A DNA stretch of 42,520 nucleotides from Trichocoleus sp. FACHB-46 (GTDB taxonomy: Bacteria > Cyanobacteriota > Cyanobacteriia > FACHB-46), in NCBI RefSeq assembly GCF_014695385.1, contig NZ_JACJOD010000077.1, positions 1-42,520 of the forward strand, read 5' to 3'. Positions 3,132-42,520 of the stretch are shown here, in pieces. A program made the position numbers and the translations under genes. Position 1 is the stretch's first letter; every line of letters begins with the position of its first letter. The notes under the pieces are model-generated. The model made no database searches, was not told where the DNA came from, and was given only the letters and a program-made list of their open reading frames with translations.

Positions 3132-3749
3132 TTAATGAGCGATCGCTGCTTTTAAGGCAGCTTGGGCATTAGCGATCGCCAGATTCCGGGCTTCATCCCC
3201 AAGATTAAGGCTATCGGCATAGACGAACTCAATATCCGTTATCCCAATAAACCCGAAAATGTGTTTTAGATAGGGTGTTTGTAAATCATAGGTATGGGTT
3301 GGGCTACCTTCGGGGTAGGCTCCTCCCTGCGCTATAATGATCGTCATTTTCTTGTTGTGAACTAGTCCCTTGTAACCTGTTTCATCAACGGAGAATGTAC
3401 GTCCCGCTCGCACAATCTGGTCAAGATAAGCTTTGAAGTTAGCAGGAATGCTGAAGTTATACATGGGGATACTGAAAACGTAGCGATCGGCTGATAAAAA
3501 CTCGTCGATCAATTCGTTGGAAACTTGAATTGCAGCGGCTAACTCAGGTGTATGTTGATCGGACGGAGTAAATGCAGCCGCGATCCAGTCTTCGCTCACA
3601 AAAGGAACAGGGTCATGCCCAATATCACGGTAAGTGATGGTGTCGTTGGGATGAGTGGTTTTCCACTGGTTAATGAACTCTTTAGAGAGTGTGCGGGAGA
3701 TGGAGCGATCGCCACGCGGACTCGCATCTAAATGGAGAATGTGGGTCAT
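3132..3749 (-). CDS. azoR: FMN-dependent NADH-azoreductase / quinone reductase
   Basis: The product of 205 residues starts MTHILHLDASPRGDRSISR, the phosphate-binding loop of flavodoxin-like azoreductases. It has SIPMYNFSIPANFKAYLDQI (the conserved P-M-Y-N-F motif contacting FMN) and IIIAQGGAYPEG. Such enzymes reduce quinones and azo dyes by two electrons with NADH in the cytoplasm, avoiding semiquinone radicals. An in-frame ATG at 3798-3800 is further upstream but adds residues before the normal N-terminus, so I chose 3749. The gene fits the quinone/electrophile theme of the rest of the window. Symbol assigned by family only. Confidence 0.9.
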   Translation of the reverse strand: MTHILHLDASPRGDRSISRTLSKEFINQWKTTHPNDTITYRDIGHDPVPFVSEDWIAAAFTPSDQHTPELAAAIQVSNELIDEFLSADRYVFSIPMYNFSIPANFKAYLDQIVRAGRTFSVDETGYKGLVHNKKMTIIIAQGGAYPEGSPTHTYDLQTPYLKHIFGFIGITDIEFVYADSLNLGDEARNLAIANAQAALKAAIAH

Positions 3750-28821: not shown

Positions 28822-28962
28822 AAGTGACGGTAGGCAATGGATGCTTGCCCCATCTTGAAGTCTGCTTAACGCAACATTGTTAAGACGGTGCTCGATCGCT
28901 GCATCACAATTGTGATGCAACAGACAAAAACACATCATCGATTTACAAAGGAGAAACCTCTC

Positions 28963-29652
28963 ATGTCTGACATTACCCTTGGTCAAGAAAACTCTGCAAA
29001 CATCGATATGAGTATCGGAATTATTGGTTCAGGAGCCCTCGGCTCGAACCTGGCGCGCATGTTGGCAAAAAATGGCATTGCAGCCACCATAGCCAATAGC
29101 CGCGGACCGGAATCGCTGGCTGACTTTGTAGCCGAAGTGGGCCCCTCCATAAAGGCCGGCACTGTTGCCGAAGCCGCCAGCGCCGACATCGTCATTGCGG
29201 CTGTACGCTGGGTCGATGCAGAGAAGGTATTCAGTGCCCTGCCTGCATGGAATGGTCGCATCGTCATTGACAGCACCAACCCAGTTGAATTCCTCGACCC
29301 AGATTCACCTGATGCCAAAGACCCCAGCAATCCGCTGGCAGCCTACGGTATCAGGGCTGTTGATCTAGGCGGCAAATTCTCCAGCGAGGTGTTCAAGCAA
29401 TACGTACCGGGTGCACGCGTAGTGAAAGCCTTTAATCATCTGGAGGTGAACCTATTGCAGGAGCCTAAAGTGTCTGGTGGACAGCGGGTGCTGTTCTACT
29501 CAGGTGACGACGCCGATGCCAAAACCCAAGTGCGAAAAATCATTGACGGCACGGGCTTCTTCCCTGCGGATCTAGGCACTCTGGAAGCTGGCGGCACGAT
29601 TGCGTCTTTGCCGTTTGGTTCATTGGCTGCGCACAACTTCATCAAGATCTGA
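28963..29652 (+). CDS. NADPH-dependent F420 reductase-like oxidoreductase
   Basis: The 229-residue protein has the Rossmann motif SIGIIGSGALGSNLARMLAK with NSRGPESL after the second strand, indicating NADPH use as in the NADPH:F420 oxidoreductase (NpdG)-like and pyrroline-5-carboxylate-reductase-like group. Then IVIAAVRWVDAEKVFSALPA, VIDSTNP and VVKAFNHLEVNLL follow. Many bacterial members have no F420, so the true hydride acceptor is open. AAAGGAGA precedes ATG 28963. Its GC-rich second codon choices differ from the dioxygenase next door, suggesting a separate acquisition. Confidence 0.87.
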   Translation: MSDITLGQENSANIDMSIGIIGSGALGSNLARMLAKNGIAATIANSRGPESLADFVAEVGPSIKAGTVAEAASADIVIAAVRWVDAEKVFSALPAWNGRIVIDSTNPVEFLDPDSPDAKDPSNPLAAYGIRAVDLGGKFSSEVFKQYVPGARVVKAFNHLEVNLLQEPKVSGGQRVLFYSGDDADAKTQVRKIIDGTGFFPADLGTLEAGGTIASLPFGSLAAHNFIKI

Positions 29653-36343: not shown

Positions 36344-36945
36344 GTTGTGTCGCAAAAATTGGTGTGTGGTAAGGTAAATAGTCCTAACCTTCCTTCTCCT
36401 GCTCTAATGTCTACTCCTACTCTGTTCAAGTGGTGGCATTCCTTACCTGAGATCGTCTTGGTAAATGTGCGGTGGTATTGTCGCTACTCCTTGAGCGATC
36501 GAGATTTGGAGGAGATGATGGCAGAACGAGGGGTGGAAGTAGATCATTCGACCGTCAACCGTTGGGTATTGAAGTACGCACCAGAGGTGGATAAACGGAT
36601 TCGTCCGCATCTAAGTCCCACTAACGACTCCTGGAGAGTTGATGAGACGTACATCGAGACTAAAGAGAAATGGAAATATCTGTATCGTGCAGTGGGCTCA
36701 GATGGGAACACGCTAGATTTCATGTTAAGTGCGAAGCGGGATGGTAAAGCGGCAACTCAGTTTTTTTGTAAACTGCTGAAAGCTAGTCATGTAGAGAAAC
36801 CGCGCGTCATCAATGTGGACAAGAATGCGGCTTATCCCGTGGCAATTGAAGCGCTGAAGCAGGAGGAACCCCTGATGGCTGAGACCGAATTACGGCAGGT
36901 AAAGTATTTGAATCCTCTGAACTCCATCCGGCTGGTTAAACGTCC
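36344..36945 (+). mobile_element. IS6-family-like element, right part lost
   Basis: The left end GTTGTGTCGCAAAAATTGG starts exactly where homology to the CPBP paralogue ends. The transposase gene follows at 36407. No matching right end is found before the hairpin element at 36946. Confidence 0.75.
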
Positions 36946-36949
36946 CTGA
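36407..36949 (+). pseudogene. IS6-family transposase without its C-terminus
   Basis: The 180-residue frame has the IS6 start (FKWWHSLPEIVLVNVRWYCR, MMAERGVEVDHSTVNRWV) and two of three catalytic acids: Asp in WRVDETYIE and Asp in VINVDKNAAYP. The expected NNIVEQDHR-type motif with the catalytic Glu is replaced by NPLNSIRLVKRP-stop from about 36911. So the transposase should be inactive. Its stop codon lies in the hairpin element. Confidence 0.88.
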
Positions 36950-37011
36950 AGTTGACTTAGGGAATAAACTCAGCCAAGAATTCGAGACTTTATTCCCTAA
37001 GTCAACTTCAG
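36946..37011. repeat. 66-bp element: perfect 23-bp inverted repeat around a 20-base centre
   Basis: CTGAAGTTGACTTAGGGAAT plus AAA at 36946-36968 is exactly mirrored at 36989-37011. The centre is CTCAGCCAAGAATTCGAGAC. The arms look like the paired terminal repeats of a DDE transposon with almost all its inside deleted (MITE-like). It follows the point where the IS6 transposase is cut. No target duplication is visible. Confidence 0.7.
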
Positions 37012-37672: not shown

Positions 37673-39541
37673 GTGTGCCGGACATGTGTACACGCTAGGA
37701 GGTGAAAGTCCTCTCCCAACCTGATGGAGGTGAAGGGTAGTGAAGCGCAAGGGCGTTATCGCGAGGTAAGGTCTGAAGGAAGCGTGGAGCAAAGGTATGA
37801 GCCGACGAATAGAAACTGGATTAGAGGCGTGAAGGTGGGACGAGTGAGCATGAGATCACAAAGTCCATATCCATCAAGCACCGGCAACGTAAATCCGGCG
37901 GTTGTGTACCAAAAGTGTGTGAACTTACTCCGGGAGGTCTGCGGCACGTCCAAACGGACTAAGAGTAGAGCAATCTGCTCTGACCCTGACGCAGAAGTCA
38001 GCAGCGGACATAGTAGGCGAGGATCGCTGAAGGTCCAAACAATCGAGAGTGGTGAATAAGACCTGGAACCTATGAGTAATTCTAAAAGGCAGATAACTTC
38101 GCAAGGAGCGTCTCCTGCATTCGAGCAGGTGAAGCCTGGCTCGAATGCGGGAACGGCTGATTTACTCATAGCGGGACAGCCTTCCCAAAGCCCGATGTTT
38201 GATGCAGCGTTAATGGAGGAAATTTGTCAACGAAGTAACTTGCTCCCAGCGCTGAAGCGTGTGATGCAGAATCAAGGAGCCCCTGGGGTAGACGGAATGA
38301 CCGTCGAGGAACTACCAAACTACCTCAAAGCTCACTGGCTCGACATCAAGGAACGTCTTCTTCATGGGGTTTACAGACCACAACCAGTTAGGAAGGTGGC
38401 AATCCCAAAACTGAATGGTATGGGAGTTCGCCAACTTTGCATTCCCACTGTATTAGATCGCCTGATTCAGCAGGCAACTTTGCAGGTTCTGCAAGCAAAG
38501 TGGGATAGAAGCTTCTCTGAACACAGCTACGGATTTCGCCCTCGGCGGTCGGCCCATCAAGCCGTAGCACAAGCGCAAAGCTATCTCAAGGCAGGGTATG
38601 AATGGGTGGTTGACCTCGATCTGGAGAAATTCTTCGACCGAGTGAATCATGACCGCCTCTTGAGTGTCCTGGCACAACGGATTAGCGATGCCCGAGTGCT
38701 TCAATTAATCCGAGCGTATCTAAAAGCTGGCGTTTTAGAGAATGGTTTAGTGAGTCCTCGCCATGAAGGAGCCGCCCAAGGTGGACCGCTTTCGCCATTC
38801 CTGTCCAATGTTGTTTTAGATGAATTGGACAAGGAATTAGAGAGACGAGGGCACCAGTTTGTGCGCTACGGGGATGATTGCAACATTTATGTGTGCAGTC
38901 AACGAGCCGGAGAACGAGTGATGGCGAGCATTAGCCGATTCATCACCCATCGCCTCAAGCTCAAGATTAATCAGAGCAAGAGTGCGGTGGCTCGCCCTCA
39001 TGAGCGCAAGTTTCTGGGATTCAGCTTCACAGCAAGCGGAGGACTGCATCGACGGAAAGTGGCTAATGAAGCCATTCGGCGATTCAAGCAACGAGTGCGG
39101 CAATTGACTCGCCGGACTCGAAGTGTGAACTGGCAGGAACGGATAGCCGAGTTATCCCAATACCTGCGAGGATGGAAAGCCTACTTTGAATTTGCCGAAA
39201 CCATCCGGCAATTCAAAGACCTCGATAGCTGGATTCGTCGTCGATTGCGTTGTGCATTGTGGAAACAATGGAAAACCTATCGGCGGCGCAAGCGGGAGTT
39301 GATAGCGTTAGGTGTTCCACCGTTGTTGGCTCATACCACTGCGTGGAGTAACAAGGGACCGTGGCGGATTTGCCATACACCTGGCGTTCAACTGGCGTTA
39401 AGCAACGATTACTTCAACAGACAGGGACTACCAAAACTTAACGACTGATTTGGCATTCAACTCGATTGAACCGCCTTGGTACGGACCCGTATGCCAGGTG
39501 GTGTGGGAGGGGGGAACTGCGAGGTTTCTCCCTATCCCGAT
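37673..39541 (+). mobile_element. Group II intron (IIC-type), complete or nearly so
   Basis: The 5' end GTGTGCCGGACATGTG fits the GUGYG intron start. The region to 38070 carries the structured 5' domains (GAGGTGAAAGTCCTC is visible). The maturase gene follows. After it, GAACCGCCTTGGTACGGACC to GGTGGT (39468-39502) forms the domain V region, and GTGGGAGGGGGGAACTGCG to TCCCTATCCCGAT (to 39541) forms domain VI with a bulged A. The intron starts eight bases after the IS200/IS605 right-end hairpin. Boundaries may be off by a few bases. Confidence 0.8.
38072..39448 (+). CDS. ltrA: Group II intron reverse transcriptase/maturase
   Basis: The 458-residue protein has the RT blocks in order: MQNQGAPGVDGMTVEEL, VRKVAIPKLNGMGVRQLCIP, FSEHSYGFRPRRSAHQAV, WVVDLDLEKFFDRVNHDRLL, GAAQGGPLSPFLSNVVLDEL, and the active site RYGDDCNIYV (YGDD instead of the more frequent YADD). 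Then comes the maturase X domain with ELSQYLRGWKAYF. The end LSNDYFNRQGLPKLND resembles class C maturases, and no HNH endonuclease is present. It should help the intron splice and copy itself. Full length and uninterrupted, so possibly active. Confidence 0.95.
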   Translation: MSNSKRQITSQGASPAFEQVKPGSNAGTADLLIAGQPSQSPMFDAALMEEICQRSNLLPALKRVMQNQGAPGVDGMTVEELPNYLKAHWLDIKERLLHGVYRPQPVRKVAIPKLNGMGVRQLCIPTVLDRLIQQATLQVLQAKWDRSFSEHSYGFRPRRSAHQAVAQAQSYLKAGYEWVVDLDLEKFFDRVNHDRLLSVLAQRISDARVLQLIRAYLKAGVLENGLVSPRHEGAAQGGPLSPFLSNVVLDELDKELERRGHQFVRYGDDCNIYVCSQRAGERVMASISRFITHRLKLKINQSKSAVARPHERKFLGFSFTASGGLHRRKVANEAIRRFKQRVRQLTRRTRSVNWQERIAELSQYLRGWKAYFEFAETIRQFKDLDSWIRRRLRCALWKQWKTYRRRKRELIALGVPPLLAHTTAWSNKGPWRICHTPGVQLALSNDYFNRQGLPKLND

Positions 39542-39890: not shown

Positions 39891-39915
39891 GACTACAACC
39901 CCTCTTTTATCAGTG

Positions 39916-39945
39916 CCTCCAGACCTCTGTTTGGAGGACTTTTTG
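39916..39945 (+). terminator. Rho-independent terminator candidate
   Basis: CCTCCA, a loop ending TCTGT, TGGAGG, then ACTTTTTG: a six-pair stem followed by five T residues, 26 bases after the stop codon at 39890. Confidence 0.6.
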
Positions 39946-39955
39946 TCTCTAAGTC

Positions 39956-40097
39956 ATGATTCCTCAACTACATCTTCTCAACTGGGGTATGGGAGTCGAG
40001 AGCACAGCAATTCTAGTCCGTTGGATGCTGGAACCTCAATTTCGTCCTTTCAAGAACTTGTGCAATTTGATTGTACTAACCGCGCAAACTGGTGATG
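39956..40097 (+). pseudogene. PAPS-reductase-like PP-loop protein, N-terminal fragment
   Basis: MIPQLHLLNWGMGVESTAIL, RWMLEPQFRPFKNLCNLIVL and TAQTGDE. GMGVEST is a PP-loop variant seen in phosphoadenosine-phosphosulfate-reductase-family proteins of plasmids and phage-like regions. Coding similarity ends at GGTGATGAG, where the TnpB element begins, so the gene has been cut after about 47 codons. Confidence 0.65.
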
Positions 40098-40935
40098 AGA
40101 TAGTTGACATCCTCCCACGGCTAAAGCGCGTGGGATTCCTAAACCTCACGATTTAGGTTTCTGCTTCCTCGCACCTGCCTTCCGAGATTTACTCTCCTCA
40201 GGTCTGACGGTCGCTCCACAGACTAACACCGCTTGCCCAGCAGCTAAATGGTTCAAAGCAGCATTCACATCCCGCTCATGGTGAGCTTCGCACTGAGGAC
40301 AATCCCACTCCCGAATGTTCAAAGGTAGTAAGTCTACTTTATGTCCACACTTCGAGCAAGTTTTAAAGCCAGGGAACCAGCGATCAAGCTGAACGAAGTT
40401 ACGCCCATACCAAGCAGCTTTGTAGGCCAGTTGACGCATCAACTCACCCCATGCTGCATCAGAAATCGCTCGCGCCAACTTCCGATTCTGGCCCATGTTT
40501 TTAACTGCCAGCGACTCCGCGACGATGGTTTGGTTTTCTCTCACCAATCGCGTCGTCAACTTGTGCAGAAAATCCTGACGGGCATCCCGAATCTGAGCAT
40601 GAACACGAGCCACTTTAAGCCGTGCCTGATGTCGATTGCGAGAACCTTTGTGTTTGCGACTCAGCCTCTTCTGAGCACGTCTCAACTTTTGGTAGAACTT
40701 AGCAAAGTGCTTAGGGTTGGCAACTTTCTCACCGTCGCTAGTGGTGATCAGGTTGGTAATCCCCGCATCAATTCCAATGGCTTTATCCACCTTAGGCAAT
40801 GGCTGAATCGCCTCGTCATTTATCAACAACGAAACACTCCAGCGGCCAGATGGGTCAAGCTTGACGGTGATCGTGGACGGCTCAGCACCTTTAGGCAAAG
40901 TGCGACTCCAGCGGATCGGCAATGGTTCAGAGCAC
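40098..40935 (-). mobile_element. IS605/IS1341-type element carrying tnpB, left part lost
   Basis: The end next to the tnpB stop has TTGACATCCTCCCACGGCTA and a hairpin (CCCACG/CGTGGG, 40114-40134), a common right-end form of cyanobacterial IS605-type elements. A second small hairpin (AAACCT/AGGTTT) surrounds the tnpB stop. The other end is missing: the tnpB 5' part runs straight into the parB 3' end near 40930. Confidence 0.75.
40146..40922 (-). pseudogene. tnpB: TnpB RNA-guided nuclease, N-terminal part missing
   Basis: The 258-residue frame has the RuvC-like core: Asp in KAIGIDAGITNLI, Glu in TIVAESLAVKNM and Asp in HHERDVNAALNHL, with a zinc finger (CSKCGHK, CPQCE). TnpB proteins are usually about 380-400 residues. 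The N-terminal helix-turn-helix and wedge part (about 130 residues) that holds the guide RNA and target is absent. So the RuvC site is complete but the protein should not be guided. The frame starts MPIRWSRTLPKGAEPS, already inside the conserved family. Confidence 0.9.
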
Positions 40936-41516
40936 TTAGCACTTGATGTTTAAGCCTTCGAGGATCTTAATAATGGCTTCTCCCATTGGCTGTCCTATAA
41001 CGTTATAGGACGCTCGTCGAACGTCATGATCCATTTGCTTCAGCAAAGCGATCACAGCCTCAACAGGCTTTTCCAGTTCAGCAGACAGCAGTGCCAGTGC
41101 CCCCTCAACTTCCTCAATCGGGTTCAGTTCTTCGTGATGTTTGTTTTCAATGAGTTGTAACTTGAGGATTTTTTTGGGCTCAGGTTCATCAATAATCCGA
41201 ACCGGAACTTCCGTCAACCCTGCAATTCCAGACGCACGATAGCGACGCTCGTCAAAGACTAGATGATAGTATCCTGGACGCTCTGGTGATTCATAAACGA
41301 CTAAGTCTTCTAAGATGCCTTCCTCACAATCGTCTGAGCTAAGCTATTCAATTTATCCGGGTCAAAGTACTTTCGGACCTGCTCCGGATCACGAATAATG
41401 CGATCACGGTTTAGGGATTGATGGACATCTTGTGATTTGGTTGGAGTACTTAGGGTGGGGATTGGCGTTTCTTTCTCTTCCTGCAGTGCAGACAACAGTT
41501 TATTAAATCTACCCAT
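40936..41516 (-). pseudogene. parB: ParB-type partition protein with a one-base frameshift and altered C-terminus
   Basis: The first part (from 41516) reads MGRFNKLLSALQEEKETPIP, then HQSLNRDRIIRDPEQVRKYF and LAQTIV. Near 41325 the frame shifts by one base, after which EEGILEDLVVYESPERPGYY and HLVFDERRYRASGIAGLTEV follow: the ParB nuclease-fold core, including the (G)ERRxRA-like box. EEVEGALALLSAELEKPVEA then matches the helix-turn-helix region. It ends after NIKC at the junction with the TnpB element. The missing base or a sequencing error is the simplest explanation of the shift. The start overlaps the parA stop by 8 bases. Confidence 0.82.
40992..41011. promoter_or_regulatory. Perfect 20-bp palindrome inside parB (parS candidate)
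   Basis: GTCCTATAACGTTATAGGAC is an exact palindrome, translated as part of RRASYNVIGQPM in parB. ParB-type proteins load on palindromic parS sites near their own operon, so this is the strongest centromere candidate in the window. Confidence 0.5.
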
Positions 41517-42108
41517 TCAAAATCTCCTTGCCAATGGCAACGTACTCATTCCAAGCAGTCCCCGCTCGGCGATCGCTGACTTTACGAACCACGACACCTT
41601 CAAGCGCCGCCTTCTGAAAGGCTACTAATTCCCGAATCCGACCTTGGAAGATCGGGAAACCCGCTCCTACCAACATCTCTCTAGCGTCTTCTCCATCTTT
41701 ACGAGGAGGTGGGGGTACACGAGTCAATAAAACCCGATATTGATCCGACCCCAGCTTCTTCATCAAGTGAATAGTCTGCATTAAGGCATCTAAAGATAAA
41801 ACATCAGGGGTAGTGGGCAAAATAAGCAAGTCACAACCATCGACTAAATCCTTTAAGTCTTCTTCTTCAGGGCATGCTCGTGTGTCAATCACAATATGCT
41901 GAAAATCTTTCGCGTACTTAGCTGCTTGTTGTTCACTCACAACCTTAAAGGGAAAACCAAGACCTCGCTTTGCCCATCGAGTCGCAGATCGATTGGGGTC
42001 TCCATCCACTAATAAAGTTTCCCCCTTCATTTGCAGGTAAGCAGCAACATGAACAGCTGTAGTTGTCTTACCCACTCCACCTTTAAATGATGCAGTCGTG
42101 ATAATCAT
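41509..42108 (-). CDS. parA: ParA-family partition ATPase
   Basis: The 199-residue protein is a short (type Ib-like) ParA: deviant Walker A KGGVGKTTT in MIITTASFKGGVGKTTTAVH, LLVDGDPNRSATRWAKRG, and Walker B HIVIDTRAC. It has no N-terminal helix-turn-helix, so autoregulation would depend on another protein. It uses ATP-driven binding to the nucleoid to separate plasmid copies. The parB frame starts 8 bases before its end, a typical par operon. Ribosome site weak. Located at the right end next to an IS, while the relaxase remnant is at the left end. Confidence 0.95.
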   Translation of the reverse strand: MIITTASFKGGVGKTTTAVHVAAYLQMKGETLLVDGDPNRSATRWAKRGLGFPFKVVSEQQAAKYAKDFQHIVIDTRACPEEEDLKDLVDGCDLLILPTTPDVLSLDALMQTIHLMKKLGSDQYRVLLTRVPPPPRKDGEDAREMLVGAGFPIFQGRIRELVAFQKAALEGVVVRKVSDRRAGTAWNEYVAIGKEILNG

Positions 42109-42416
42109 GTTGCTTTCAGGCTTAGGTGTCGCAGAATTAATGTTCTAATTATGCACGTTCGGAACGTTATTTCATAATCTCACAACAAATCAATTTTTCT
42201 TTTCCTAGCAGAGACCTTAAACTGCTTAAAAGATGCAGCTAGCTTGATGATAGTAGGCCTGAGCTATACACATATGGAGAGGTGATCAGGCTCCCCATTG
42301 TTAAACTGCTCAAGCCACCGCAGATTTCAAGAGCTTTTAGCAAACCAAGCACTCGAGAAATCGTTTATCAGAACATCTTTACAATGGTTTCTATGAATTC
42401 CGTAATGGGCGTTGCT
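42109..42416 (-). promoter_or_regulatory. par promoter region with 13-bp palindrome
   Basis: This 308-base spacer holds ACGTTC-G-GAACGT (42155-42167), about 50 bases before parA, a candidate par operator. GTTC also occurs at 42142. The remainder up to the IS (42168-42416) has no recognisable gene; an AT-rich stretch with AATCAATTTTTCTTTTC near 42190 is the only other feature. Confidence 0.5.
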
Positions 42417-42520
42417 GAATAGGTAATGATTTAAGCTGAGAGAGGAATTGTCCGATACTTCAAATAATGCAGCAGCAACCGAAGTGAACACTTCAACATC
42501 TCAACTGATTTGGAGTAGCA
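42417..42520 (-). mobile_element. 3' end of a second IS1-like element (cut by window edge)
   Basis: The element begins GGGCGTTGCTGAATAGG at 42417. Its first nine bases are the reverse complement of GCAACGCCC at 149-157, the matching end of the left IS. The transposase end lies at 42431. Confidence 0.7.
42431..42520 (-). pseudogene. IS1-like transposase, C-terminal end (cut by window edge)
   Basis: On the minus strand: CYSKSVEMLKCSLRLLLHYL, then KYRTIPLSA and a TAA complementary to 42431-42433. It has the same YSKS and hydrophobic-tail pattern as the left fragment but clearly different residues, so the two window edges do not belong to one IS copy. Confidence 0.65.

Follow-up and report, generated by a model that had tools for sequence, protein, structure and literature searches.

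A predicted ParB-binding centromere embedded in the parB genes of a family of cyanobacterial and Thermus plasmids

A perfect 20-bp palindrome within a broken parB gene of Trichocoleus sp. FACHB-46 is very probably a ParB-binding centromere (parS) embedded in parB itself, in the loop of the DNA-binding domain that lies just ahead of the recognition helix of the protein. From the comparison of related sequences, we put the probability of this reading at roughly 0.87. Across most of the ParB family to which the gene belongs, a dyad of about 20 bp is conserved, with a near-invariant AACGTT core and symmetric, lineage-specific arms. Taken together, the conservation in the loop, the covariation of the arms with the protein and the copies outside the gene argue for a ParB-binding site within the gene, in all likelihood parS. 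A ParB dimer would bind the dyad via its two recognition helices, would load there and would be moved by ParA, resulting in partitioning of the replicon. With the site and the residue that reads it in one gene, both would be inherited together, and a new specificity could arise and travel as a unit.

The palindrome and its broken gene

The window, i.e., the whole stretch of DNA that was analyzed, is the entire contig C77 of 42,520 bp. The features around the palindrome are listed in Table 1. On the minus strand the palindrome reads TCC TAT AAC GTT ATA GGA, which encodes S-Y-N-V-I-G of parB. Its symmetry is without mismatch, in agreement with the preliminary description. It occurs once in the window; in the whole 6.56-Mb assembly no second copy with up to three mismatches was found, and a search of viral contigs yielded no exact copies. 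The palindrome had also been described as rare by chance. This holds for simulated windows with matched neighbour frequencies, in which palindromes of at least 20 bp occur at a mean of 0.03 per window (any in 3 of 100 simulations), but the window itself contains another perfect 20-bp palindrome, TGCATCACAATTGTGATGCA, at 28900–28919. Length alone is therefore weak proof, and it is the comparison with homologs that carries the proof. The second palindrome is located near the beginning of a listed ORF (28888–29652) and is perhaps the operator of some regulator.

Table 1. Coordinates of the palindrome and of the neighboring features in the window.
Feature	Position	Strand	Basis
Predicted intragenic parS, perfect 20-bp palindrome GTCCTATAACGTTATAGGAC	40992..41011	.	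sequence and comparison
Core AACGTT (codons AAC GTT = N-V, minus strand)	40999..41004	.	codon counts across family genes
Broken parB, first part (other frame)	41310..41516	-	ORF list, L003 alignment
Broken parB, second part (frame open to ~41343)	40936..41301	-	Pfam ParB_N, L003 alignment
parA, uninterrupted ORF, 199 aa (CbiA / AAA_31, ParA type)	41509..42108	-	ORF list, domain match
IS605-type TnpB (OrfB_IS605, Cas12f1-like_TNB)	40146..40922	-	domain match, L003 alignment

The parB gene, which is adjoined by the parA-type ORF, is broken twice: by a frameshift between its two parts, and by the TnpB element, which abuts parB where the recognition helix begins in L003, the nearest homolog found. 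The second part of the gene covers the last stretch of ParB_N, a helix and the loop that contains the predicted parS, and is devoid of the recognition helix and the C-terminal part; the broken protein matches the Pfam model ParB_N with 27.6 bits and does not match HTH_ParB. A search of the assembly for the lost C-terminal part did not find it and yielded only seven paralogs with 34–48% identity. Even if the frameshift were a sequencing error, which is possible, the recognition helix would still be lost through the TnpB cut. As the TnpB profile match begins inside the model, the start of this gene may be missing. The location of the palindrome near the end of parB, as described earlier, is correct for the window, but is owing only to the truncation, since the site in the intact homolog L141 corresponds to residues 165–166 of 309. 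A group II intron reverse transcriptase/maturase (RVT_1, GIIM) is encoded near the par region, at 38072–39448. At 36946–37011, an inverted repeat with 26-nt arms that are 96% complementary and 14 nt apart sits at the end of ORF 36347–36949, which looks transposase-like by eye.

Distribution of the loop palindrome

Homologs were found in 63 of 145 related genomes and in 164 of 388 genomes of the class. The sample comprised 310 loci, in which 270 different parB frames were represented. These were divided by their score against a profile (A1) that was built from 19 sequences, mostly picked from palindrome-bearing loci: 181 family members (at least 250 bits) and 85 canonical ParB proteins (below 220), with the 4 frames in between (220–250) left out. 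Among the first 29 homologous loci, AACGTT was present at the N-V of the loop in 27; L027 has AATGTT, and no loop palindrome core was found in the examined stretch of L031. In the full family, 134 of 181 genes carry a perfect loop palindrome of at least 14 bp and 120 one of at least 20 bp; when the profile-building genes are left out, 118 of 162 genes carry one of at least 14 bp. In the whole remainder of the gene, palindromes of at least 14 bp are present in only 7 of 181 genes and those of at least 20 bp in none. The codon phase is identical in all 134 loop palindromes, and 133 have the core AACGTT. A scan of named genomes yielded mostly canonical ParB from other phyla, which served as controls; 42 of the 85 canonical genes failed to reach both alignment anchors, and none of the 43 that could be measured has a loop palindrome of at least 12 bp. 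The loop, measured from the first helix to the recognition helix, has a median length of 33 residues in the family vs. 7 in these 43 canonical genes.

Among named organisms, the loop palindrome occurs in cyanobacteria (Trichormus, Nostoc, Picosynechococcus) and Thermus, and the family proteins of Rubrobacter (L136) and of Deinococcus radiodurans (L137) are encoded without it. Both ParB_N and HTH_ParB score above the cut-off in L141, L132, L003, and L139, although HTH_ParB barely passes in L132 (22.8 vs. 22.6). The annotated neighbors of parB are a ParA family protein in L133 and L139, an AAA ATPase in L132, and in L134 a cobyrinic acid synthase, a common misname for ParA.

A loop palindrome of 14 bp is lacking in the other 47 genes of the family. 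Their surroundings were searched for a moved site (a 16-bp palindrome with an ACGT center) over 2.5 kb where flanking sequence was present, which was often little, and one clear case was found: L094, whose loop copy is decayed, has a 20-bp dyad approximately 690 bp before the frame. Two other genes without a loop palindrome, L272 and L305, have one-mismatch copies outside the gene. Additionally, the paralogs L042, L071, and L093 have long palindromes with other cores at a similar distance into the gene (CGGACACCGGTGTCCG, GGGGGAAGCGCTTCCCCC, and GTCCCGTAGCGCTACGGGAC, respectively), and the core itself may change in some lines.

Selection on DNA rather than on protein

A first question is whether residues that the loop needs simply happen to yield a palindrome. 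The conservation of the loop N-V in 158 of the 181 genes is in line with such a protein constraint or coincidence, but the adjacent residues vary widely, and of all explanations considered here this is the one to which we give the least credence. Symmetry was analyzed in these 158 genes, with the 23 genes lacking N-V excluded. The two half-sites are symmetric in a fraction of 0.90–0.98 at positions 4–10, against 0.32–0.77 for a column-shuffled null, and symmetry drops to 0.63 at position 11 and 0.50 at position 12, reaching approximately the shuffled value from position 13 onward. This loss of symmetry past position 10 indicates a site length of about 20 bp, i.e., about 10 bp per half. The letters of the arms vary strongly at most of positions 4–10, with the exception of position 5, which is an A in 142 of 158 genes. 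Restricting the analysis to a single representative of each 70% cluster (84 genes) left the result unchanged.

Codon choice at the site is similarly skewed. The N codon is AAC in 155 of 158 genes, compared to 614 of 1539 N codons elsewhere in the same genes, and the V codon is GTT in all 158, compared to 1024 of 2723. Synonymous recoding destroys the palindrome: the mean half-arm is 9.9 in the observed genes vs. 1.2 after recoding, and the difference is significant at p < 0.01 in 129 of the 158 genes taken singly. An informative single case is L003, which has 76% identity to the window parB. The preliminary description had named as refutation homologs that encode the same residues with no palindrome. 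Instead, L003 encodes SHNVMG rather than SYNVIG and still has a perfect 20-bp palindrome, as a paired change from TAT..ATA to CAT..ATG alters two residues and leaves the dyad perfect in both genes. The intragenic parS proposed earlier thus gains strong support from sequence comparison, the nearest homolog having kept the dyad despite changed residues.

A structural model of L141 (mean pLDDT 83.7, 14 sequences), the fold of which matches ParB and Noc structures, has helices at residues 145–159, 170–182, and 187–199. The N-V lies inside a stretch with a pLDDT below 50 (163–166). According to this model, the palindrome encodes a loop that is probably flexible and lies a short distance ahead of the recognition helix (187–199), and the low confidence of the model in the loop suggests that the loop residues are probably free to vary, which also argues against a protein constraint.

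Covariation of the arms with the recognition helix

Covariation was analyzed in those 145 of the 158 genes in which at least 9 of 10 pairs are symmetric. The background-corrected mutual information peaks at the combination of protein column 197, which belongs to the recognition helix, and arm position 4, the base adjoining the core (z = 13.4). The other pairs with a z above 4 involve columns that are themselves encoded by the palindrome, or columns 159, 160, 163, and 223. Base 4 is T in all 61 genes with N at column 197, C in all 24 with H and A in all 14 with T. The remaining genes combine S with A (36) or G (4), K with A (4), V with A (1), and A with A (1). On a tree that was built without the loop columns and without columns 197 and 223, residue 197 changed at least 27 times and arm base 4 at least 24 times. 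In independent pairs on supported branches, N/T agreed in 5 of 5 and H/C in 5 of 5 (p = 0.0625 each, short of 0.05), while for S/A 3.7 of 6 pairs agreed and the others did not differ (p = 0.125). For N at column 160 and A at base 9, 7.8 of 8 pairs agreed (median p = 0.0078), and for R at column 223 and G at base 6, 5.0 pairs agreed, 0.3 disagreed and 1.8 did not differ.

Profile alignment to the structure 6t1f places column 197 at N178 and column 223 at R204 of Caulobacter ParB, and a single offset of 10 between the chain index and the published numbering brings G170, K171, S172, R173, N178, T179, A184, G201, and R204 onto the correct residues. Both N178 and R204 contact parS, according to the Caulobacter study (PMC7383237). 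The covariation between the site and the residues expected to read it, which are separated by approximately 80 bp in one gene, strongly implies that ParB would bind the dyad.

Copies outside parB

Copies outside the gene were sought on 76 replicon stretches of at least 5 kb, with 69 of the 145 genes, which are on shorter stretches, excluded. With up to one mismatch to the gene's own 16-bp core, 24 further copies were found on 19 of the 76 stretches, compared to 3 matches in 2457 control tests with the cores of other genes on the same stretches. The 19 stretches are not independent, as 8 have the half-site ACCACAAC in common and 10 half-sites are represented overall. Searches of whole genomes (up to one mismatch) revealed eight exact copies on the 124-kb plasmid pAQ6 of PCC 7002. 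In G163 there are seven copies, one of them with a mismatch, and in G149 three, in both cases all on one contig with none elsewhere in the genome; G017 has the parB copy only and G177 has none. A reversed control pattern had no match in the searches of pAQ6, G163, G149, G017, and G177. Two copies in G162 and three in G317 are likewise confined to one contig each; here the control pattern had one match on each strand in G162, and the pattern is missing from G128 and G264, which both have other half-sites. The site is thus replicon-specific and close to parAB, although some copies are up to tens of kilobases away.

These copies bear on three alternative explanations. Firstly, the dyad could serve not as a centromere but as an operator at which ParB autoregulates parAB. 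Of the 24 outside copies, 14 are found 673–890 bp before the parB frame, the region expected to be upstream of parA, the position of parA being deduced from its usual length as the gene is unannotated there. However, pAQ6 with its eight copies and G163 with its seven have several copies kilobases from parA. Furthermore, 13 family genes contain two or more loop dyads, in tandem and in frame, with equal arms in 13 of 13, and this resembles a binding array. An operator in place of a centromere is therefore improbable, and the two roles are compatible. Secondly, a mobile palindromic repeat or a site-specific recombination site could have inserted in parB. The tandem in-frame copies in the 13 genes would suit such an element, but the homologous place is identical in 134 genes, the arms co-vary with ParB residues and the palindrome is not spread over the genomes searched, which makes this explanation very unlikely. 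Thirdly, the same holds for the possibility that the parAB transcript forms an RNA hairpin controlling translation or decay. A fixed six-letter center with covarying arms would equally suit a hairpin whose loop is invariant. On the other hand, the mismatches have no wobble bias (G-T/T-G 15, A-C/C-A 26), the replicon also carries identical copies outside parB, the arms track the DNA-reading residue of ParB, and no Rfam match at the gathering score was obtained for 39900–42520 of the window.

No selection for differing half-sites within one cell was found: 7 of 92 co-resident pairs share a half-site vs. 3.5 expected. Six of the seven sharing pairs lie in G128, where four parB genes (L070, L073, L075, and L124) on four contigs share the half-site GGAGAAAC. 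This sharing is at odds with simple plasmid incompatibility.

Comparison with known partition systems

The family resembles the ParABS systems of the Spo0J/Noc/ParB family, such as Caulobacter ParB and Bacillus subtilis Noc, in having ParB_N and HTH_ParB domains, a ParA-type neighbor, the same recognition helix and a palindromic site that likewise has an ACGT center. With the contact residues taken from PMC7383237, N178 of canonical ParB would pair with the T at the equivalent base of TGTTTCACGTGAAACA, similar to the combination of N with T found here. Unlike canonical parS, the site is located inside parB, in a long loop, and its arms vary among plasmids. The loop site does not match the consensus of the canonical chromosomal parS, TGTTNCACGTGAAACA, as given in PMC4409726, and only the ACGT center is common to both.

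The closest precedent is the parABSm system of the megaplasmid of Thermus thermophilus HB27, which is of the same kind in that parS lies within the parB gene and is bound by ParBm in vitro. As described in PMC4409726 and PMC10085754, parSm is a 14-bp palindrome inside parBm, and the support presented for it consists of gel shifts that included competitors and of foci that tagged ParBm formed in E. coli. This sequence, AAGGACGCGTCCTT, differs from the loop site in being 61 codons downstream of the loop and outside the residue-base rule. It is present in L135 (strain HC11) at 3442–3455, a gene that scores 332 bits against the family profile. The loop of L135 holds TAGGGACAACGTTGTTCCTA, with 9 of 10 pairs symmetric, and, column 197 being H, the C found in the loop dyad is the base expected from the rule; L135 is one of the 24 H-C genes. 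These sequences suggest that the loop dyad may be the main site in T. thermophilus. An observation on another plasmid concerns L138 of Deinococcus aetherius, with TTATCTTTCCGGAAAGATAA before parA (at about 1872) and TATCTTTCCGGAAAGATA inside parB at another position in the gene (at about 3505), which may mean that a parB-internal site has arisen independently there.

In the open-licence papers searched, neither the family-wide loop site nor a parS of cyanobacterial plasmids was described, and no experiment on binding or partition with the loop site was found for any member of the family. The passages of PMC12207404 and PMC3899335 that name the parB gene together with parS concern cloning only, and the cyanobacterial passages of the review PMC9178275 do not treat plasmid parS.

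A broader reading that joins these elements is plausible, though held with clearly less confidence than the centromere itself. A large plasmid ParB family would carry its centromere beside its own recognition helix as a short heritable cassette, in which a residue-base rule (N:T, H:C, S/T:A) would govern the innermost variable base and new specificities would arise by paired changes in arm and helix; the published parSm may then be secondary and the loop dyad the true site. Centromeres could be proposed from the sequence alone for many cyanobacterial and Thermus plasmids, and plasmid compatibility in these hosts becomes testable. The more than 100 matched protein-site pairs (145 were used here) constitute a natural data set for protein-DNA co-change, and the loop would be a case in which a DNA signal, and not the protein, dictates the amino acids.

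Fate of the site in this genome

The preliminary description had suggested that the site is kept for a ParB encoded elsewhere. This receives no support from the six other parB genes of the genome with an AACGTT palindrome, which have six other half-sites, or from the seventh paralog (L087), which has no loop palindrome; the single-copy state of the window palindrome in the assembly argues in the same direction. As judged from these half-sites, no matching ParB is evident among the ParB proteins found in the genome, although a matching one could be encoded by a plasmid that the assembly lacks. Over 118 codons compared between the window parB and L003, 32 are the same, 58 differ silently and 28 change the residue. 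Since the changes are still mostly silent, the window parB was probably broken recently, and a recent breakage suffices to explain why the palindrome is still intact. The window site is therefore probably an orphan relic that is now idle rather than kept for a ParB acting in trans, and its use in trans in this cell is unlikely.

Two further palindromes were observed near other parB loci. L087 and L118 (2174–2193, G000:C43) concern a ParB without a loop dyad, with the 20-bp palindrome TACCCACACGCGTGTGGGTA located 68 bp before the open frame. Near position 373 of L123 (G000:C67), there is a perfect 48-bp palindrome with the center GCGATCGC, the HIP1 octamer of cyanobacteria.
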